64,000 nt of DNA from Strix aluco (lineage: Eukaryota; Chordata; Aves; Strigiformes; Strigidae), in NCBI RefSeq assembly GCF_031877795.1, contig NC_133932.1:78605937-78669936 (forward strand), given 5' to 3'. The notes beneath the pieces were generated by a model. That model saw nothing but the letters and a program-made list of their open reading frames with translations, ran no database searches and had not been told where the DNA came from. This document shows positions 515 to 58,200 of this stretch, one piece after another. Within the stretch, counting starts at the first letter, position 1. Every line of letters begins with the position of its first letter. Made by a program: the position numbers and the translations under genes.

Positions 515-798
515 TTTAACCTTAAGCTGCTCTAAAGCAGTGATTCGACCTACATGAGGGCCTATGTATCCATGCACTACTTCTAAAGTATCAGCAAAGA
601 CAATTGAGGAGGAAACAATGTATGCATCCATCTGATCATTGTAAATTCTGTATTTGTAAACTTATGTTAGCAAAGTAACTAGACGTTCCTCACTGGCAAA
701 CTGCTGTAGCAAAATGTAAGATAATACCCGAAGATAAATTAAACTCATCTTTTTCGAAGAACTAACAACTAAAATGACAAACAGTATAATATACTTAC
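1..798 (-). other. TM9SF2: TM9SF2 intron 2 (partial)
   Basis: AT-rich sequence downstream of TM9SF2 exon 2 on the minus strand. I looked for the next expected coding segment, which in human TM9SF2 starts around FDFCQ, and did not find it, so exon 3 must lie beyond the left edge. The stretch contains a TA/CA microsatellite near 484-512. The short open frames here do not resemble TM9SF2. Confidence 0.75.
484..512. repeat. (TA)n/(CA)n microsatellite
   Basis: About ten TA units are followed by a few CA units and then TA again. It lies within TM9SF2 intron 2 and is likely length-polymorphic. Confidence 0.9.
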
Positions 799-866
799 GC
801 AGTATATTCATAGGGAAGGACAGACTCTACAGAGTCAAGCCTGTTCACAAACAGCTCGATTCCAGA
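799..866 (-). CDS. TM9SF2: TM9SF2 exon 2 (transmembrane 9 superfamily member 2)
   Basis: This 68-bp exon reads SGIELFVNRLDSVESVLPYE followed by YTA and a split codon, which matches the segment after CKAE in human TM9SF2 almost residue for residue. The acceptor is TTTCAG just above 866. The donor is GC|GTAAGT just below 799. The exon enters in phase 0, which agrees with exon 1 ending on a full AAG codon, and leaves after two bases of a codon. It encodes part of the luminal N-terminal domain of this nine-spanning endosome/Golgi protein. In the first two residues the human AE is replaced by SG, which is a mild difference at the junction. Identity is confident. The rest of the gene lies outside the window. 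Confidence 0.93.
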
Positions 867-3800: not shown

Positions 3801-4863
3801 CACAGCTATGCGTTAGGTGCAAGATTTGGCTGGTCTGAATGGAATGATACACTTAAAGAAGGGAAAAGACATTTATAGCAACTATGCCTTCTTCACACGT
3901 TTGGCTTATTACTTGCTCTACCAATTCATGAAAGCAAATGGATAAAGTCAGTGCAAGGTATTTACCAAAAGCATACAGTTTAAATAGACTCTTATTCTGA
4001 AGAATCATGCACCAGTATTTCATGTAATACAGAAGCTGGAGATCAGAAAACGTGAGATAGCCACTTTCAACAGCAGTAAGACAATGGATCATAAAAGCAA
4101 TTAGTCTTGAACTTTCTCATTCAAGTCTTAAAACACAGTCTGACGTTAATTTCCATGACAGCAGCAGCAAACAACTTCTAAAGCTCACCCAAAGGAGCAA
4201 AGACAGACCCCCTGCCAGCCAACATCCTTACAAATACTTAATTTGGTTATGCGAACTTTGGTTGTCACTTGTGTAGGCATGAAAATAAGTTTAAGCTTGG
4301 CTTGAGACTCTGGGACCGAGAAGCCCCTATGCTTCAGATTCCTGCAGCCAGGAAGACACAGCAAGGAAAGTGTTGCTGCTACGCCTGCCTTGGTTTTGTA
4401 TCTGCTTGCGGCCATCAGCTCCTTGCTCCTCCCAAGAAACACACACCGCCGGCACGACCTGTCAACCGCGATTCTTACTTTCTGCAGCTTTCCCAGCAAG
4501 TATTTAAAATGGCCCAAGAGATAAGCGGTCGGGGCTTCCTATTTCCGCAACGTGACCATAACTCAACGAGATGAACTGGTAGCTCTTCCCTGCGAGGGAC
4601 CGCGGGCACTTCACCATTGGCGATTACAGCGGGAACTCAAACGCGCTCAAAGCCCCCCACGGCCACGGGGGCGTCTGGTACGTTATAATGAGACAGCTAC
4701 AAACCCTCCGGGAAAAAAAACCCAAACACAACACCCCCACGCAAACCCCACAGCGGAAGGGTACAAGTCAGGCCGCGCAGCAGCCCGGGCCTCAGGGGCG
4801 CGGGTGCCGCCGAGGCCTCCCCTGAGGGCTGCGGGCCCCGGGCCCCCCCTTCCCCGGGCTCAC
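867..4863 (-). other. TM9SF2: TM9SF2 intron 1
   Basis: Four kilobases between the first two coding exons, mostly AT-rich. It contains a CR1 tail at about 3540-3735 and an unexplained 84-codon frame at 1274-1528 on the minus strand. The 300 bases next to exon 1 belong to the CpG island and carry a CCATTGG (inverted CCAAT-type) motif at about 4614-4620. No RNA gene or other exon is evident. Confidence 0.8.
3540..3735 (+). mobile_element. CR1 LINE 3' fragment
   Basis: This reads as the degraded 3' end of a CR1 element on the plus strand. It contains versions of the tail phrases 'ggatgttttcaaggc', 'gacctcctgaggtcacttcc' and a terminal 'tctgtcatcctat', which corresponds to the short 3' repeat of CR1. 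It is strongly 5'-truncated, as most CR1 copies are. It sits in TM9SF2 intron 1, antisense to the gene. Confidence 0.8.
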
Positions 4864-4992
4864 CTTGCACTCCGGCTTCTCCTTGCCGGCCTCGCAGAAG
4901 TTGACGGGCGCCAGGCCCGGCAGGTAGAAGGCGGCGGCGGGGGGCGCGGCCGCCGCCAGCGCCGCGGCGATGAGGAGCTGCCGCAGAGCCAT
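4864..4992 (-). CDS. TM9SF2: TM9SF2 exon 1, coding part (signal peptide and mature N-terminus)
   Basis: This stretch encodes 43 residues beginning MALRQLLIAAALAAAA, a clear signal peptide, followed by FYLPGLAPVNFC. That motif is the diagnostic mature N-terminus of TM9SF2; TM9SF4 has FYVPGVAPINF instead. The exon ends ECK, then the donor AAG|GTGAGC. The frame stays open upstream to 5319, but I chose the ATG at 4992 because it sits in a strong CCGCCATGG context and puts a hydrophobic leader directly before FYLPG. TM9SF2 is a nonaspanin of endosomes and Golgi, linked in the literature to glycosphingolipid synthesis and protein sorting. The human leader is different and longer, as is usual for signal peptides. 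Confidence 0.93.
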
Positions 4993-5306
4993 GGCGGGGG
5001 GGCGGCGGCAGGGGGGCGGCGGCGGCGGCGCGGGCGGGGGCGCACGCGGCAGCCCGCGGCGGGGCGGGGGGGAGGGTCCCTGGACGCCTCTCGCGCGCGC
5101 CGGCGGCGGCGGCGGCAACAGTCGGCGGCTTCGTCTCCCCCCGCCCTGACGGCCGCCACTTCCGGCTTCTCGCGCGCGCGACACGTCACCCTGCGCGGAC
5201 CGCCTGATCGAGCGCGAGGGGGCGGGGCCGGCGCACGCGACGAGCGGGCAGGGCCGGGCCGGGCCCCGCGCGTTCGCTTCCGGGGTAGCGCCCCGCCTCT
5301 GCCCCG

Positions 5307-5320
5307 GTTGCCGTGGCAAC
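5307..5320. promoter_or_regulatory. Palindromic RFX-type X-box
   Basis: GTTGCC-GT-GGCAAC is a perfect inverted repeat with a 2-bp spacer and fits the RFX consensus (GTNRCC, 0-3 N, RGYAAC). It lies about 315 bp upstream of the TM9SF2 start codon within the CpG island. RFX binding is inferred, not shown. Confidence 0.6.
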
Positions 5321-5690
5321 GCGGCGCCCTCCGCCGCTCGCCCGGCCCGGCCCCGCCCGGCCCTCCCCGGCAGCGCGAGGGGCCGCCCCGGCCGCCGAGG
5401 AGCGGGGGGGGGTGTGTCCCCGGGCGGTGGGAGCGGCGCCCAGCCGCCGTGTGGGACTCCCGCCTGGGGGGTCCCGGCGAGGCCTGGCCCCGCTCCCGGT
5501 CAGGCTGCCCTTAATTCGCGGCTGTTCAGCGGTCTCTGCTCTTTTAAAAATATATTATTTTGTCTTTTTGGGGTTTTTTTGGGTTTTTTTATTTTTTTCG
5601 GTCTCAAGGGTTTTGCTATGGACAGCTCTCAACGGTTTTCAAACTAAACTTGGGGTGAGACCTACCTCCGGCGGAGTGGAGCCGGGAAGG

Positions 5691-34389: not shown

Positions 34390-35412
34390 GACAGGCCCAG
34401 AGGGTGATGATCAGCAGCGCAAAGCCTAGTTGGAGACCAGTAACTATCAGTGTACCCCAGGGGTCAATACTGGGTCCAATCCTGTTCAACACCTCTGTTA
34501 ATGATCTGGATGATGGGGCAGAGTGCACCCTCAGCAAGTTTGCAGATGACACCAAACTGGGAGGAGTGGCTGATATGCCAGACAGTCATGATGCCATCCA
34601 GAGGGGACCTCGACAGGCTGGAGAAATGGGCTGGCAGGAACCTCATGCAGTTCAACAAGGGGAAGTGCAAAGCCTTGCAGCTGGAGAGGAACAAGCTCAG
34701 GCACCAGTACATGCTGGGTCTGACCGCCTGGAAAGCAGATTGGCAGAAAAGCTCCTGAGGGTCCTGGTGAACACCAAGTTGAACAAAAGCCAGCAATGTG
34801 CCCTTGAGGCAAAGAAGGCAAATGGTATCCTGGGCTGCAATAGGATGACTGTTGCCAGCAGGTCAAGGGAGGTGATCCTTACTCCCTGCTCAGCACTGGT
34901 GAGGCCACACCTGGAGTCCTGAAGTCAAGTTCTGAGCTCCCCAGTACAACAGAGACATGGACATACTGCAGAGAGTCCAGCGAAGGGCCACACAGATGAT
35001 GAAGGGACTGGAGCTTCTCTCCTGTGAGCTGAGGGAGCTGGGATTGTTCACCCTGGAGAAGGGAAGGCTCAGAGGGATCTCATGGGTGTATATAAATACC
35101 TGAAGGGAAGGTGCAAAGAGGACACAGCCAGGCTCTGCTCAGTGGCACCCAGTGACAGGACCAGAGGCAATGGGCACAAACTGAAACACGGGAGGTTCTC
35201 TCTGAACATTGGGAAAGACTTTTTCACAGTGAGGGTGACTGAGCACTGGCACAGGTTGTCCAGGGAGGTTGTGGAGTCTCCATCCTCAGACATATTCAAA
35301 AGCCTTCTGGGCACGGTCCTGGGCAACCAGCTCTGGGTGATCCAGCTTGAGCAGGGGGGTTGGACCAAATGACCTCCAGAGGCCCCTTCCAACCTCAATC
35401 ATCCCATGTATC
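34390..35412 (+). mobile_element. CR1 LINE with reverse-transcriptase C-terminal remnant
   Basis: A 5'-truncated CR1 on the plus strand covering about the last kilobase. Within 34404-34922 the frame encodes PQGSILGPILFN and then KFADDTKLGG, corresponding to RT motifs including the catalytic (F)ADD block. Downstream come the ORF2 tail (cacctggagtcctg, agggccacacagatgatgaag) and the 3' UTR, ending near tcatcccatgtatctgtgag. Frameshifts split ORF2, so it is a fossil. It is the best preserved CR1 in the window. Confidence 0.93.
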
Positions 35413-40460: not shown

Positions 40461-40579
40461 GACCTCAGGGTGCTTTTATAACGTGAGCGAATCCCGAGGC
40501 GCTCACACGGCCGGCAGCCCGAGAACCGGGCGCGGGCAGGGAGGCTCCGCGCCCGCCGCCCCCCGCCCAGCACCGGGCG

Positions 40580-40620
40580 GGAGGAGGAGGAGGAGGAAGA
40601 GGAGGAGGAGGAGGAGGAGG
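40580..40620 (+). repeat. (GGA)n purine tract
   Basis: About thirteen GGA units with one GAA interruption, inside the receptor CpG island. Confidence 0.9.
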
Positions 40621-40639
40621 CGGCACCGCCGCTCCCAGG

Positions 40640-40836
40640 TTGGAGCCCCTGATTTCTCTTTCGTGCCTGTCAGCGTGCCTGTGAGCATCGCAGCCCCTCG
40701 GGTGTCCCCGCCGTCGGGGGCGGGAAGCAGCGCGGTGCCCGGGACGCCCCGTCGGTCCCGTCCCGCCCCGCGGCTGGTGCGCGCCCGCGGAGCGGAGCCC
40801 GGCGGCGGGAGGCGGCCCCGAGGGCGGCAGCGAGAG
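40640..40836 (+). other. Probable non-coding first exon of the GPR183-like gene
   Basis: A good donor, CGAGAG|GTGAGC, sits at 40836/40837 inside the CpG island. A matching acceptor, TTCTTATTCCAAAG|GAG, sits at 41636/41637, 32 bp before the receptor ATG. This copies the two-exon arrangement of mammalian GPR183, a short 5' UTR exon plus one coding exon. The transcription start is not visible, so the left boundary is arbitrary. Confidence 0.4.
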
Positions 40837-41220
40837 GTGAGCGGGGGGTGCTGGGGGGCGGCGGCCGCCCCGGCTGGACCCGCGGCCGGGCCGGGCGGGG
40901 GGGCGCAGCCCGGGGGCTGCTGCAGCCCCGCGGGGCGGGGGGAGTGTCCCTGTCCCCGGGCCGGCGGGGGGCGCGGACCCGTGGCCCAAGGCAGGGCGAG
41001 CGGCGGGAGGGCGTGCGGGGCGCCGGGGTTTCGTGCTGGGGTGTTCCCCGCTCCCCGCTTCGGACGGGCATGGGGCGCGGGGCTTTCGGGGAAGGCTCGG
41101 ATTTTTTCCCCTCTTTGAATTCAGTTTTGTTTCTGCTCCGGTCCCAGACCGAGGGTTGCAAAGGTGCTCCTTGTCACCTCTGCCCGGCGCCCCCCCCCCC
41201 AGCCACACCACTCCCCCCGA

Positions 41221-41243
41221 CCCCCCCCCCCCCCCCCCCCCCC
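41221..41243 (+). repeat. C23 homopolymer
   Basis: Twenty-three consecutive C residues in the presumed intron of the receptor gene, preceded by a C11 run at 41190-41200. Such tracts are hard to sequence, so the length is uncertain. Confidence 0.85.
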
Positions 41244-41668
41244 ACTTTCTGGGCATTTTCTCAATGAAACTCCCCACTCCCCCTGCGGTGATGAATAAAT
41301 GACATCGCTGCCACCAGATGAGTCTGGGACCTTGTTTGTGTGACAGGTGATTCCCCCTCCCAGCCCCCTGCCCTTTCTGGTATTGATTGGACTTGCAAAA
41401 AAACAAAAATAAGAGGAGCGGGTGGCAAGAAGAAGACAATGAGTCACAGCCTTTGTTGAGACGCTCGCACCGAAATCACAAAAGATGTGTTTTTCCAAAT
41501 GACTCGAGCTGTGTGCTGCCATGGGGGTGGCAGGGAGCAGGGGACAGGCTTTTTGCTTCGTGGCAAGGGCCAGCCCTATGGGTGCCGCTCCCATTATCAA
41601 TAAGCTGCAAGTTTCATGTCTGTTCTTATTCCAAAGGAGAGGGCAAGAGCTCGTGAGGCACCGCGGAA

Positions 41669-42727
41669 ATGGCTGTTGCGGAGGACGTGTTCCCGCCCGC
41701 CAACCTCACCTCCAGCAACCAGAGCAGCTGCAACGTGCACAACCACCACTTCTCCGCCAAAGTCACCTTCTCCCTCTTCTACACCGCCCTGCTGGTGTTC
41801 GGTGCCTGCGGGAACATCCTGGCCCTCTGCATCACTTTCCAGCGCAGGAAGAAGAAACTCAACTCCACTGACCTCTACCTGGTGAACCTGGCCCTCTCCG
41901 ACGCCCTCTTTACCCTGGCATTGCCGGGCAGGATCGCCTACTACATCCTGGAGTTCGACTGGCCCTTTGGGGACTGGTTCTGCCGGGCCACAGCCTTCAT
42001 TTTCTACATGAACACGTATGTGGGCATCTACTTCATGACCTGCGTAAGTGTGGACCGCTACATCGCCGTGGTGCGCACCAGGCACCCCGGCAGGATCCGG
42101 AAGATGAGCCGTGCCCGGGGAGTCTGCGTCCTCATCTGGTCCTTGGTGTTCCTGCAGACAGCGCCGCTGCTTCTGCGGCCCATGACGCGGAGGATGGGGG
42201 ACAAGCTGACGTGCATGGAGTACTTCAACTTCGAGGAGATTCCCAAGCTGCCCTACCTGCTCCTGGGGGCCTGCGTAGTTGGCTTCTTCCTGCCCGTGGG
42301 CATCATCTTGGTGTGCTACGTGAGGATCAACCTCAAGCTCTGCCAGACGGCCAAGGAGAACCCGCTGACGGTGAAGAACGGGCATCACCGCCGGGCCTTC
42401 ACTGTCATACTGGTGGTGCTGCTGGCCGTCCTGCTCTGCTTCAGTCCCTACCACCTCAACATCGTCCAGTTCATGGTCAGGAAGATCCTCTACCAGCCAT
42501 CCTGCCACGAGCAGCAAGCCTTCAAGATGTCCCTGCAAGTCACTGTGGCATTCATGAACCTCAACTGCTGCATCGACCCCATCATCTACTTCTTTGCTTT
42601 CCGGGGCTACAAGCGGAGGCTGCTCCGCATCTTCAGGAACAGCGGCTCAATGGCCACCTCCTCCACTGCCAAGACCCCCTCTGACAGCAACAGCAACAGC
42701 CAGCCGCATGGCTCCATCTCTGTCTAG
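41669..42727 (+). CDS. GPR183-like (EBI2-like) class A G protein-coupled receptor
   Basis: An intact single-exon frame of 352 residues. An in-frame TGA at 41654 fixes the ATG. The N-terminus has two N-glycosylation sequons (N12-L-T, N17-Q-S). Seven hydrophobic helices follow. Landmarks are GN in helix 1 (48-49), LALSD in helix 2 (D78), cysteines 105 and 182 for the conserved disulfide, DRY at 129-131, CFSPY in helix 6 (257-261) and DPIIY in helix 7 (303-307). The C-tail is rich in serine. Best resemblance is to human GPR183 (361 aa): TCMEY.NFEE, LLLGAC, TAK.NPLT and GYKR are shared. GPR183 binds 7alpha,25-dihydroxycholesterol and guides B cells and dendritic cells. Third-position GC is very high, unlike the AT-rich flanks. 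Location outside UBAC2 suggests a paralog, so no symbol is given. Other purinergic-like receptors are less likely. Confidence 0.93.
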   Translation: MAVAEDVFPPANLTSSNQSSCNVHNHHFSAKVTFSLFYTALLVFGACGNILALCITFQRRKKKLNSTDLYLVNLALSDALFTLALPGRIAYYILEFDWPFGDWFCRATAFIFYMNTYVGIYFMTCVSVDRYIAVVRTRHPGRIRKMSRARGVCVLIWSLVFLQTAPLLLRPMTRRMGDKLTCMEYFNFEEIPKLPYLLLGACVVGFFLPVGIILVCYVRINLKLCQTAKENPLTVKNGHHRRAFTVILVVLLAVLLCFSPYHLNIVQFMVRKILYQPSCHEQQAFKMSLQVTVAFMNLNCCIDPIIYFFAFRGYKRRLLRIFRNSGSMATSSTAKTPSDSNSNSQPHGSISV

Positions 42728-51611: not shown

Positions 51612-51719
51612 TCAGTGCTGCAGTAGAAAATTAGTGGCTACATTTAAGTCATTATTTGAAGCCCTCAGAGCTTCTAGAGCATCTCCCCTGGAAAATCCCA
51701 TTTCCATAAGTCGTGCAAC
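51612..51719 (-). CDS. UBAC2: UBAC2 last coding exon (UBA domain)
   Basis: This 108-bp exon reads VARLMEMGFSRGDALEALRA, then SNNDLNVATNFLLQH and TGA, which matches the C-terminus of human UBAC2 essentially without change. The acceptor is CTTTTCCAG just above 51719, phase 0. It encodes a three-helix ubiquitin-associated domain with the MGF loop that binds ubiquitin. UBAC2 is an ER membrane protein of the rhomboid pseudoprotease group. It works with the gp78 ligase and UBXD8 in ER-associated degradation and in controlling UBXD8 traffic to lipid droplets. The gene runs right to left, in the same orientation as TM9SF2. Confidence 0.97.
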   Translation of the reverse strand, partial: VARLMEMGFSRGDALEALRASNNDLNVATNFLLQH

Positions 51720-54700
51720 CTGGAAAAGAAATAACATAACACCACTTTAAAACCAGAGTTTTATTCACAGTGTGTGCGCATTAGTCATGTTAGCAGTGTC
51801 AGAGATCACTTTTCCACTGATCAGGCTGTTCAAAAGCTTACCTTTCCAGAGAGTGAGCAAGCATGGCTATGCACTGTCACAAAGACGTATCTGGGACTGC
51901 ATGCTTGAAAACACTGCCACAGAGATGACTGCTTTCAAAATCAACCGTTTCTGAAAATGCCACACCTGTATTTCCCTAGCCGGTCCAGTTTTGAAAGAAG
52001 AGTAAAACAGAAAGTATGGCACCACACATCACAACTTGGGGCTTGCTGCTCTTGACAAGAACAGGAGCTCAAGAACCCAACACTGACCAAAATATGGAAT
52101 TTTACAGCAGATGCAAAAACCTGTCCAGACATTCTTAGCTTTACCTTCCTTGAAAAGATCTACTTCTCCAGAGGGCATAAAAAAACTCAAACCTATTAAT
52201 TCGAGGTGGTTTTTAAAATAAACCTGGAAGTTAGCCCTAAAACAGAAGCAGCACCATACTTAAACGGGTTCAGTAAAATCCTTGGAAGGATTCTACATAT
52301 TCTCAGAACAGTATAAATCAATCACATTTGATGGAAGAATTACCTGGAAAAGGGCACATTAAGACAGTGATTTTGGTAATCAATAACCACTTGACCATCC
52401 CTTTTTATAATACCATGTACTCGACACCTAACGTTTTTGCTCTGTGCTAACAGATATTTAAACTGCCACATGTAAAAATCAATGTATGTATAACCAAATT
52501 TAATTTACGGTTAATTTCCAATCTAAAGCACATTCAAAATCTACAATTCTCAATTAGGTATGACTGAAAGTCACAATATAACTCATTCACTTTTATAATT
52601 AATCTTCCAGAGAGGGGAAAAAAACGAGGTGTGGTGGTGCAGGAAGTGGCACATAAAATTAACTGTGGCCACTGGCAGCATAAAGCATTCCCCATCTTGC
52701 TCCAAATGGCCTTTGTGACCAGCCACCACAACTCCTGAACCTGGAAGTCCTGGGTTACAGGAGCTGTGAGAGAGCTACCACTGCTCCTCCTCTGCCTGTC
52801 CGGAGCCTGCAGCAGCAGAATGAAGCTGAGCAGGAACGCAGCAGAGGCCGTTTCCGTCTCTGGAGGAATCTCCCCAGGGTGCAAGAGCAATGTGCACTCG
52901 GATTGAAAGTACTTTAAATGCCTTTTGAAAGAAAGGTGCCATTAAAAGCAACTTCCCTGTCCTCTAAGACACCTTCAGAACTCTTAGTATTTTTCACCTT
53001 CTCTGCTTTGGCAGCTTACTGAGAAATCTACTACTGCCAAGTATGCCTGGAGGTGGGGTCCTCCTTTTCTTAATCTAAATACACCGTTACAAAACATGTG
53101 AAATGGCCACTTTGTTTGTCAGAATATCAAATACGGTACTGATAGTTTTTGTGCCTTTCCCCCTTTTCCCCCCTTACAACCCAATGGCAGTTTCTCACCT
53201 TCTGGTAGGTAGAGAAATGAATTGTTACTTTCGACACCTCTGCAACAATAGTGTAACTTCAAACTGGATTTCATAGCCTTTTCTAAAGTTTCCTGTGTCT
53301 GATTTTTCATCTAAGATTGTGTTTTTTACGAGAAAAAGGGCAGGCAGTGGAATAAAAGCTAACCACAGAAATACATTTCAGAAGAAAGGTTTTTGCTGCA
53401 GTTGCCATGAATTCTAACCTTAAAAAGTGGTGGATGGAATTGCAATGTTCCCATTTACAGAAATAGCCAGCGAGCAACACAGGGAACAGATTGTAACAAC
53501 AAAAAGCTCTTTTCAACTGATTATATTTTAACCACAGGAACTGAATCCAGCTCCAGGAAACAGAGGTGTATGCTGGTAATGGTAATTTAAGGTGCTAAAA
53601 GACCCACAAGAAATGCAGAGATTTTTGTACCAAAAACATTGCAAATGCTTGCCATTTTAAATCTGAAGAACAGAAGAAAACCTTGCCCTTCTTACATTTT
53701 AAGACAACTTGTGCAGTTACTAGTACAGTCCTGAAAAATCAAAGGTGCTTAGATTACCTTTTTCTTTGCAGGATAACTAGACAGCATTGCAAATGACAGC
53801 AATTAGGTGAGCTCTACAACTTCAATGCATCAGAAAATATAAGCGTATACTGCTTTCATAAATCTGGGCCTAAAGGCTTTGGGAAAGAATCCAGCATAAG
53901 TCAGACTAATAACTATTTAATTAGTTCCAGCCCAACAATATAAGTTCCCATAAGCAGAATTTGTCAATAAAACAAACAAACAAACCAAGCCAGCAGGCAA
54001 ATCTTTTGGTCCACCCCATAACTGGCACTGAGTAGGCTTTCAGGCTGGCCAAAACTAAGTTTCTGGGTTTTGTCTCAGAAGGTATTCTCTGGTGAGGGGT
54101 TTTTATTTTTCTTTTCCTCTTTTTTTTTGTTGTGCTTTGTTTTTTTCTTTCTTTTTTTGGATGTAGCCTAGCACGTTTGCAGTCAAAACCACCAGTGCAG
54201 TTAAAGTTTTGAACATTTTGAACATAATCTAACATTGAATCAAAACTAGAAATCAGAACATAGCAGAGATTTCTGTTTGGGACAAGCTCATTTTAAACTA
54301 ACTAGAAATGACAGCGTGGTTCTTGCAAGTGTTGATTTATCTCCCTAAAACAAAGGAAAAAGGGAAAGAAAAAGTCACCCTTGAAACCTACTCTTGTTCA
54401 AGGGTAGCAGAGATCCTAGACTATAAAAAGGCCAATGCTGCTAACTGTAGAAAGGCTGCAACCTGGAAAACCTGATTGCATGCAATAAATGCTGAATATA
54501 GAAATAAGACTAATCTTAAATTCTTAAATTTCCTAGTAAATCATCCTCTCTTTTGAGAATAAAACTATCAACCAAAAAATCTAAAAGTCTACATCTATAC
54601 ATGATAGAAAAGACACAAACTTCTCTGTGGCATTAGTATGTGAAATCAGTCAACCACATTATTGAGGGAAACATCCAAGATCTAGACCAAGTGTGAGTTG

Positions 54701-55143
54701 CAGTCCACAGCTGGCATAACATTCTTATTTCCAAAAAACTACATGACTGAATTGGAAACTTAAGCTGGAGACCTCACTGAAGGAAAACGTGCATGTCTAC
54801 AAGAAAAATAATGATATCTATTTGTCATTCTTCCTTCTTTGAAACACTTATTTTACCAGATTTGAATAGCCCCCACTAGTGAAACTGTCTCATCTTTAAA
54901 TACAAAAGACAAACAGTTACACATAAAAGCAGAAACTCCCAAGTAAAAGCAGAAACTCCCAAGTTATCTGTAAGTCTGGTTTGGATGGCAGTAACAATTT
55001 GCTGTCTCTATATTGTGACTGTTATCTGATACTCTACTTTGTGCTGCTATAGAGAACATTTAAGAAAATGTGTCAACATATAATAAAAAAGTAGAATTCC
55101 TAACCATTTTTTTAATGCCATTTTAAAATAGAAAAATGTTTAC
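51720..55143 (-). other. UBAC2: UBAC2 last intron
   Basis: AT-rich intron between the two UBAC2 exons. It includes a 20-bp tandem duplication at 54925-54964 and some T-rich runs near 54110-54155. No nested gene or RNA gene was recognised. Confidence 0.85.
54925..54964 (+). repeat. 20-bp perfect tandem duplication
   Basis: Two adjacent identical 20-bp units (aaaagcagaaactcccaagt). Confidence 0.95.
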
Positions 55144-55266
55144 CTGCTCTTCAGAAACCTCCGTAGGTGGAGGTGTGTCTTGTTCAGACGGGCGATGATC
55201 TTGATAATTCGCATTATGTCTATGACGTAAAGGAGGAAACAGTCTATTCCAGTTAATCATCCCACC
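55144..55266 (-). CDS. UBAC2: UBAC2 penultimate coding exon (linker)
   Basis: This 123-bp exon (41 codons, phase 0 at both ends) begins GGMINWNRLFPPLRHRHNAN and ends PPPTEVSEEQ. Human UBAC2 has GGMINWNRLFPPLRQRQNVN and ends LEVSEEQ, so identity is clear. The acceptor is GTTTCAG|GGTGGG and the donor CAG|GTAAAC. It encodes the cytosolic linker between the membrane domain and the UBA domain. The start is conserved, while the middle (YQDHRPSEQDTP) differs from the human linker, as expected for a disordered stretch. Confidence 0.96.
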
Positions 55267-58200
55267 CTGAAACCAGACACTGCTGTCAGTCTTTGCAAAA
55301 AGAACAGAGATTTTTAAACAAAAAGATCATGCATCCCACATAATATGAAACACAAATGTTTGAGTAAAATATTTTAAACAACAAAAACTGCTGCAGTCTC
55401 TTATGAAGTAAATATGGGACTGCTTACTGCTTTACTAGTTATTAGACATAATCACTGTAAATTAAGTAAAAGTGCTAACAGAAGGAAGAAAGGATGTTTC
55501 ACATCCATTGTGAAAGATTTGGTTTACTACAGTGCTAGACTGCTGAGGCCAAAGGACCTCTCTCTTTACTGATTTGCCTGGCAAGAGATGCAACAGCAGG
55601 TCCTGTAAGTGCTTTGCAAGACTGCTGCTGGAGTTAACCAGGGAAAAAGAGTGCAAGAAATAAGTGGGGGGGAAAAGCAAAAATGGATTCTCAGTGCATC
55701 AGCAAAACCACATCAGAAAACTCAGAACAAGCTCAACCTTCAGGATACCTGTGATTTCCATGCAAGGGATTATTTCTGTGACACCAACACGACTGTTACA
55801 GACACACAGACCACCTCACCTAACTTCCGTGTATTAAATACCATTGCAAAATCTGTTGTATTCCAGTGCTAAAACATTTTGTAACTACATAGTAATAATA
55901 CAAATACACAGCAGTAATGTATGTATGGTGTAAATCACAGAACTGAAACTTCCTTTTAACAACCAAGCTTCAAGTCTTGTAATAAGACATTTAGAATATA
56001 AAGTACAAATACTAAAGTACAAGCTTTATAATTGTCCAGAAATAATTAATCCTCATTTTATTATCTTAAACAAACATTTTTAAGGGATTTTGTCTTACAC
56101 CAAAACCACAGGCCCTGTGAGCAGGGAGTAAAAGCAAACCCCAAATCTCTCTTTTCTATACAATTTAAAACACCTTTTGCAGTTTGTGTTGTCCTTTTCC
56201 TCCTCCCCTGCTCCCTCTGTTACTATGGAGAAGATCCCCCTCCCTTTCTGTATATATAGGACATGGACTTCCTTCCTCTAGTTGCTCTATTTTAGTTCCA
56301 TAATGTCGTTTCTCAGAAGACCTTCCTCTTAAGAGAGTTTTTTCTTTTCTCTCTCAGTGAGGGTGCTTCCTGCCTTCATGTACCCTAGAGCATTAACTGC
56401 TCTCTGCTCAATCAGATCAGCAGCAGCTAAACCTGCTGCTGGACAGAAAAAAAAAAAAAAAAAAAAAAAAATTCACTCTTTTAGTTTCTCTGCCCTTTCC
56501 TTTGGATTCTTCCTTTCTCTCCAGAGACCCAACCAGCCCAGACACCACAGGGGGCAGTGCAATAGCACACTTAGAAAAGCATTTGGGGAGATTTGAAACG
56601 CTAGCGTGTGAAGTGTTTCAGTCCCTTATACACTAGAGCACATTCTTCCCTGTGAAGATGTGCGAAAGCTAGGAATCATCACCGGTTTTCAAGACATAGT
56701 TTCCACTGTTAGTGATTCTGAATTTAAAAAATGATTACCTATCTACATTTCTGTTTTGTGTACTGTGTAAGACATTTGCTGAAAAGTCATGAGGTTTTAA
56801 TCAAAGGATTCTGTATAAGCCTTGCATTAGTCAAATGGTGTAGCATAGCAAAAAAGGAGAATTGGTTTGTAGTTTAAACCCAGAGAGGGATCTCAGACCT
56901 TTTACTGACACCACTGCACTACTCTGTGGTCTTGGAAAATCACGTCCTGTACTTCCTCATCAATAATTTCACCTAACTCAGAATTATGTTAAGTTTTAAT
57001 TCATTAACTTTGAATTTCTGAAAGTCTACTAAGCTCTATAGCTCAGCAAGAACACTGCACTAATACTGCTTTGCCTGTTTTTATCCTTTTGAAAAGACTT
57101 CATGAGAAGAAATTAATGCTTCCACAGGTCATTCACATTAAATTGGTGAATTGAAAAATGCCAAGGGGACTATGACACATTCCTTTGAAGCACCAGAAAT
57201 CATGCAGAATAATGTATATGAAATACAAAATCTACAATAAATGCATTAATTTAGCAGTATTCCAGAGTATCTGAAGACTGAAATAAATGTACCTTTCCAG
57301 CTGTGCCCTCAGCTTCAGTACTGAGCTGCCTATTCCAGTTTGGTTTTGCATCCTCCCTGTCCTGTGCGCTGCCACCTAACACTACAAAGAGACTTGTCTA
57401 CTTCCTCACCCTAAACTTACAATACATTTTAAATTAGTGTACCCAGAATTCATTACTTCCAATTAAAAAATGCAGATTCTTTACAAAGGTAACTATTTAG
57501 TCCTGAAGGTTTACAGCAGATATCTTGATAAACTACAGATGTGGACTGATGTATTCAGAAGATTTCCATGTGAAGACTGCTAACCCTTTCCCAGAAATAA
57601 AAGACTAGACAAATTAGATCAAAACAGTTGTGAAAAGCTCTTTTTCAGTTGCCCTCAGAATTTTTCAATTACCTTTGGAAACTGGGTCAAACATAACCCC
57701 TCAGTTCTTAACTATATTAATGAGGTAAGAATATCCAACATACAACAAACTTTTAATGGTATGTGAACACTGATGTTTAGGATTAATCCCAACATTATGG
57801 TCCACTTCTCATCTGTGCATTACTTTACAAACTACACCAAAACAAGGCACATTAGGCTGCTTTATCTTAACTGCAAGAAAATTGTTTCCCCTCACAGACT
57901 TGCCTCTGATTACGATGGACTTGCACAAAGTCAGGCTCAAAAGAGCATAGATTCAGGGAACTGCAGCAGGAACTGTGGGACTGGTACTATGGCCAATCCC
58001 ATAGAGTAAAGGTAAGGAAAAATGAGGAAGTGCAGCGAATATCTTGGATCCACAGAAGATGGAGATGAAGGCTATGCTATGGATTTCCAGTGTGGATGGT
58101 GACTGTGTAAAGACTTTCAGAAAGCCTTAAACTATCACAGCAGAAATACATGAAGATCTGTGAATGTTAATTTGACGCAAACAGCAAAAAATGTCTTAAG

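Follow-up and report, generated by a model that had tools for sequence, protein, structure and literature searches.

Analysis of a 64-kb stretch of the Strix aluco genome (C2:78605937-78669936 of 1.41 Gb; hereafter the window) revealed a GPR183-like receptor gene that is, with a probability of about 0.93, an ancient paralog of GPR183. This reading is carried by an intact open reading frame (ORF), a clade separate from GPR183, its co-occurrence with true GPR183 and GPR18 at one locus, a predicted seven-transmembrane (7TM) fold, and a GPR183-like pocket. The coding sequence (41669..42727, plus strand) is a single unbroken exon running from ATG to TAG through 352 codons plus the stop and encodes a complete class A receptor, as indicated by Pfam, the structure 7tuz, homologues, and trees. 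The 7tm_1 profile (PF00001) spans the protein in full (192.7 bits, E 1.1e-56, profile positions 1-260 of 260) and the translation contains the class A hallmarks VDRY and DPIIY. The homologues P0001-P0003 cover 100% of the receptor at 91-93% identity, which places the ORF far beyond chance. The top match among solved structures was GPR183 (7tuz, E 8.8e-111), with CYSLTR2 far behind (3e-42). An AlphaFold2 model built from a 42-row alignment of both clades displayed seven long helices (pLDDT 79.6) and was closest to 7tuz, the oxysterol-bound GPR183 (TMt 0.92), a best fit that is expected from homology. A minus-strand ORF overlapping the receptor (41597-42538) reads as the mirror frame of a GC3-rich coding exon and not as a gene.

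The receptor gene is antisense to UBAC2, which flanks it on one side, and TM9SF2 lies on the other. Its stop codon is separated from that of UBAC2 by 8.9 kb, in agreement with the first-pass annotation of a complete 352-codon class A receptor in opposite orientation about 9 kb past the UBAC2 stop. Of the UBAC2 coding exons, the window contains only the final two, both on the minus strand: the second-last (55141..55269; 74% identity over 43 amino acids, with AG/GT splice sites) and the last, encoding the UBA domain (51612..51722). The match to the latter (...NVATNFLLQH) ends at 51615 and is followed by a TGA stop, and 36 of 36 residues of this exon agree with what we take to be the UBAC2 sequence. 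A further 160 kb to the right was read and mapped jointly with the window, and in these extended coordinates additional minus-strand UBAC2 exon matches were located at 69578-69823, 85236-85289, 87188-87316, 135542-135646, 136088-136213, and 141027-141155, such that UBAC2 matches span 51615 to 141155; the first UBAC2 residues were not found in the window and the 160 kb to its right. On the other side, the TM9SF2 N-terminal exon (4864..4932, minus strand; match to AFYLPGLAPVNFC..., 74% over 23 amino acids) falls in a CpG-rich region (4501-5500), and the next coding exon (798..860, minus strand; IELFVNRLDSVESVLPYEYTA) was assigned by residue match, 21 of 21 residues agreeing with what is presumably the TM9SF2 sequence. 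Between TM9SF2 and the receptor, the ORF at 34404-34922 includes a reverse-transcriptase-like stretch (VPQGSILGPILFN...FADDTKLGG), presumably a fragment of a CR1-type LINE.

The UBAC2 introns to the right of the window were searched for bona fide GPR183 and GPR18, and both were present in a single 48-kb intron between the exons at 87188-87316 and 135542-135646. GPR183 (104532-105635, plus strand, extended coordinates) was recognized as a homology match open throughout to its stop, and GPR18 (132988-133950, plus strand) as an open frame of 320 codons. They lie 62 and 90 kb, respectively, to the right of the GPR183-like receptor, and the three genes are co-oriented and colinear. The GPR183 frame opens behind an AG and the conserved ATG is absent from the exon, which makes an upstream exon the probable site of its first codon, a difference from the GPR183-like receptor with its ATG in the coding exon. 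The first-pass annotation had proposed as one option that the receptor in the window is the GPR183 ortholog moved out of the intron, and databases do label some clade members from birds and turtles as GPR183 or GP183 (P0004, P0008, P0013). Almost no weight can be given to such a relocation, as the intron of the same genome still holds a protein whose identity to bird GPR183 reaches 97% (Chunga), and the receptor, 8.9 kb past the UBAC2 stop, is outside the intron position that marks the ortholog. The first-pass annotation would have abandoned the paralog interpretation if this genome had no other GPR183 and the phylogeny made the protein the direct ortholog of mammalian GPR183; a second and true GPR183 was present.

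Base composition also differs along the locus. The third-position GC content (GC3) of the GPR183-like receptor is 0.89 with flanks of 54% GC, compared to GC3 values of 0.42 for GPR183 and 0.44 for GPR18, both AT-rich with flanks of 38%, at a distance of 62-90 kb; this constitutes a sharp compositional step inside one locus. Upstream of the coding exon, a CpG-rich stretch (40501..41500, plus strand; GC 0.81 then 0.59 and CpG observed/expected 0.84 then 0.61 in a scan by 500-base steps) is a likely promoter and non-coding first exon. A donor scan identified the candidate donor AG/GTGAG at 40835-40841 (plus strand), and a consensus reading of the sequence gave a putative splice acceptor AG (ttcttattccaaAG) at 41635..41636 (plus strand), just ahead of the coding exon. 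The acceptor, the CpG-rich stretch, and the donor-like AGGTGAG at 40835 fit a non-coding first exon, which the gene may therefore possess. Two pure C runs of 11 (41190-41200) and 23 bases (41221-41243), situated between the coding exon and the CpG-rich stretch, could mark a weak point of the assembly or favor G-quadruplex formation.

A search of the whole genome with the receptor protein, in which 115 of 238 candidates were scored, identified GPR183 at C2:78710522-78711502 as 50% identical and the sole match at that level besides the receptor itself. The remaining scored matches reached at most 37%, the two at this value covering 109 and 124 residues, and those of at least 300 residues, besides the receptor and GPR183, did not exceed 34%. 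Clusters of receptors of the same broad class with 27-33% identity were observed on C10 (27.36-27.69 Mb) and C2 (107.12-107.25 Mb).

Phylogenetic analysis was based on 84 proteins hand-picked for taxonomic spread from 278 fetched, plus the window protein. The resulting 85-row tree without outgroups separated GPR183-like proteins (47 rows) from GPR183 (38 rows) by a branch with support of 100/100 that was recovered in 100% of 200 bootstrap trees. Addition of the own-genome GPR183 (86 rows) placed it with bird GPR183, and a single branch again divided the two groups (support 100/99, recovered in 100% of the 200 bootstrap trees). In a tree with two outgroups, both groups stayed single (91/88 and 93/90; 94% of bootstrap trees) and were sisters when rooted, the root being placed by two outgroups with very long branches (2.98 and 4.6). 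A clade sister to GPR183 was the pattern that the first-pass annotation had named as support for an ancient paralog. In all three trees, the receptor grouped with the coelacanth entry si:ch211-184m13.4 (P0019) and other GPR183-like proteins. Profiles of the two clades, built from the 84 proteins that are themselves among the 278 scored, assigned 157 of the 278 as nearer to the GPR183-like clade and 121 as nearer to GPR183, with P0052, assigned to GPR183, closest to the boundary.

Both groups contain chimaera together with sharks or rays, as well as ray-finned fishes, lungfish, coelacanth, amphibians, turtles, crocodiles, birds, and mammals, and the same wide spread in each indicates that the duplication is ancient. 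The first branch within each group of the rooted tree comprises cartilaginous fishes; among the GPR183 proteins of that tree, coelacanth and lungfish fall with the ray-finned fishes, against the species tree. The simplest history seems to be one duplication before the split of cartilaginous and bony vertebrates. A tandem duplication of GPR183 specific to birds or reptiles, with recent departure from the UBAC2 intron, is extremely unlikely: the gene adjoins the UBAC2 locus in the orientation of GPR183 as such an origin would require, but its identity to the own-genome GPR183 is just 46-50% compared to 78% with crocodile and 76% with turtle in its own clade, and this clade includes sharks, fishes, and amphibians. 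The first-pass preference for a tandem duplicate that escaped its host intron likewise did not survive the locus map, in which the three receptors are colinear and co-oriented, two of them lying within the span of UBAC2, and an ancient duplication does not need such an escape. The trees and the locus map together led to the rejection of recent duplication, relocation of the ortholog, and intron escape. Its other proposal, that of a second GPR183-type receptor, was borne out by the true GPR183 and GPR18 in the intron and by the placement of the protein in a clade to which none of the GPR183 rows belongs.

The gene of this ancient paralog is already in databases under placeholder names, and the protein is little studied. 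Labels within its clade include GPR183-like, GPR183, GP183, and si:ch211-184m13.4 (NCBI/UniProt), and the members named GPR183 or GP183 thus bear the name of the wrong paralog. Literature searches on GPR183/EBI2 paralogs, birds, fishes, and oxysterols found no study of the GPR183-like protein. A census of vertebrate receptors without human orthologs names GPR197 (ENSLOCP00000021877) in its GPR183/CYSLTR section (PMC6504862). The species spread of GPR197 in that section fits the GPR183-like clade, yet no amphibian is listed there and the clade has frogs and caecilians; that GPR197 may be this clade is our guess.

Retention of the paralog is broad among mammals. Among the matches listed (120 of 333 and 120 of 228, with clusters that hide further species), GPR183-like proteins of at least 319 amino acids were identified in at least 24 placental, at least six marsupial, and at least one monotreme genera, and the first-pass suggestion of loss in mammals was consequently too strong in view of long clade proteins from at least 31 mammal genera in these matches. 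This count leaves out Saguinus, in which one stretch of the 344-residue protein is apparently out of frame. No named ape or murid copy was among the matches listed, and the primate Otolemur has one; similarly, the listed matches held no named squamate or tuatara GPR183-like copy, compared to GPR183 from at least 18 squamates and the tuatara. As the matches listed are a part of the total, some rows are unlabelled, and species are clustered, absence there is no proof of loss. Seven of eight short mammalian models (235-256 amino acids; P0241, P0253, P0255, P0256, P0257, P0264, and P0278) are without nearly the same stretch, from extracellular loop 2 (ECL2) to the TM6/TM7 loop, such that ...LLQ/LQT is joined to RAF or a similar motif. 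The joints vary by a few residues, and the pattern looks like a shared predicted splice or a deletion inside the coding exon.

The signs of decay in some mammals, such as the Saguinus stretch, together with the absence of a named ape or murid copy among the matches listed, could suggest that the gene is intact but silent or decaying in birds as well. This is very unlikely, as the representatives of the nearest clusters (P0001, P0002, P0003, and P0008, standing for 78, 177, 6, and 286 members and examined as representatives alone) are open frames over 91-100% of the receptor at 91-93% identity.

The two paralogs are probably linked in a number of other vertebrates. Comparison of the listings by eye identified 17 species in which the GPR183 and GPR183-like clusters have equally long longest contigs, and in which both genes are thus very likely on one chromosome. 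These comprise Rhinatrema, Microcaecilia, Discoglossus, Rhinophrynus, Hymenochirus, Dendrobates, Anomaloglossus, Dendropsophus, Dromiciops, Cynocephalus, Heterodontus, Heptranchias, Callorhinchus, Mobula, Amia, Arapaima, and Scleropages; Protopterus was left out of the count due to a rounded number. Three species, Xenopus laevis, Ascaphus, and Gymnothorax, had longest contigs of unequal length for the two genes. Consecutive tags (GDO86_004011/004012) mark the pair in the frog Hymenochirus.

The nearest known system is GPR183 (EBI2), the receptor for 7alpha,25-dihydroxycholesterol, which belongs to the same subfamily at 46-50% identity and shares the TM2-TM7 pocket core, the locus, and the orientation with the GPR183-like receptor. 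It differs in its separate clade, its position inside the UBAC2 intron, the rim positions 6.58, 7.32, and 7.36, and its GC3. GPR18, a class A receptor of the same locus and orientation, is 26% identical to the GPR183-like receptor, and a GPR18 query gave no match to solved structures at E 1e-45. The next relatives by solved sequence are CYSLTR2 and GPR17 at about 30-31% identity in the fold comparison. CYSLTR2 has R2.60, Y3.33, N3.35, Y3.37, Y6.51, and H6.52 in common with the GPR183-like receptor and is, to our knowledge, not an oxysterol receptor. The oxysterol-contact residues named for GPR183 in an EBI2 review are R87, Y112, N114, Y116, E183, and Y260 (PMC4209795), and C201 and H261 are named for inverse agonist binding in another report (PMC13392048). 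All six contact residues and the equivalents of C201 and H261 are present in the GPR183-like receptor. CYSLTR2 also has six of six contact residues and seven of eight of the combined set, such that the eight are weak evidence for the ligand and the six are not diagnostic of oxysterol binding. The contact residues were dropped as ligand evidence on this control, and a comparison of the whole pocket was used instead.

For this comparison, 32 pocket positions were taken from a generic class A list, which was fixed before counting and is distinct from contacts measured in 7tuz. The GPR183-like receptor and the own-genome GPR183 are identical at 27 of 32 pocket positions compared to 65 of 134 other transmembrane positions (Fisher p 0.0003). 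The controls displayed no comparable excess, with GPR18 at 14/32 versus 40/134 (p 0.15) and CYSLTR2 at 13/32 versus 48/133 (p 0.69). Across eight pairs of GPR183 and sister proteins, 22 to 27 of 32 pocket and 61 to 77 of 134 other helix positions were identical. Four of the eight were Fisher-tested, and the pocket excess was recovered for the window protein against stork GPR183 (p 0.0003), the coelacanth pair (27/32 vs 74/134, p 0.002), and rhinoceros against elephant (24/32 vs 61/134, p 0.003), and was not significant in the shark Heptranchias pair (22/32 vs 77/134, p 0.32). The pocket differences from GPR183 are at 5.38 and 6.44, off the rim, and at 6.58, 7.32, and 7.36 on the extracellular TM6/TM7 rim. 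Position 7.36 is Q in 46 of 47 GPR183-like rows and H in all 38 GPR183 rows, and 7.32 is K in 41 of 47 versus Q in 38 of 38. At 6.58, F occurs in 40 of 47 GPR183-like rows and H in 28 of 38 GPR183 rows, which are thus not uniform at this position.

The pocket identity with GPR183 (27/32 vs 65/134) points, with modest preference and from sequence comparison, to a Gi-coupled receptor of the oxysterol-type ligand class with a shifted preference. A ligand of another kind for the ancient paralog, either a different lipid or a nucleotide-like mediator as in the CYSLTR/GPR17 type, is possible though rather doubtful. The contact residues held in common with CYSLTR2 and the rim that differs across nearly the whole clade speak for it, as does the replacement of R2.60 in 11 of 47 GPR183-like rows (ten K, one T), all mammals, in which the ligand may differ. 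Against it, pocket identity with GPR183 is about twice that with CYSLTR2 or GPR18, and C5.43, T3.36, F3.32, Q4.56, and N7.43 are the commonest residues in both clades and different in CYSLTR2. In the favored scheme, the outermost of the three co-oriented receptor genes (GPR18, GPR183, and GPR183-like), antisense to UBAC2, would be expressed from a CpG-rich promoter of its own, the transcript beginning with a non-coding exon. Its product would couple to Gi at the cell surface, respond to an oxysterol or a comparable sterol-like lipid, and steer cells along gradients as GPR183 does. Its ligand preference would be altered relative to GPR183, as three of the five differing pocket positions are on the rim.

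The EBI2 review gives the receptor no close structural homologs, with GPR17 nearest at 31% (PMC4209795). This may hold for human and not for vertebrates at large, where a sister at approximately 50% identity is known from sharks, fishes, amphibians, turtles, crocodiles, birds, and many mammals. Work citing a single "GPR183" in species with both genes may conflate the two. Should the sister respond to another oxysterol, the pair would offer a natural comparison for rim selectivity and for dispensability in some lineages. Tentatively, and at slightly less than even odds, early jawed vertebrates would have had two adjacent oxysterol-sensing chemotactic receptors, of which many lineages including birds use both and apes, murids, and squamates use GPR183 alone, such that the EBI2 biology of human and mouse would represent half of the ancestral system.
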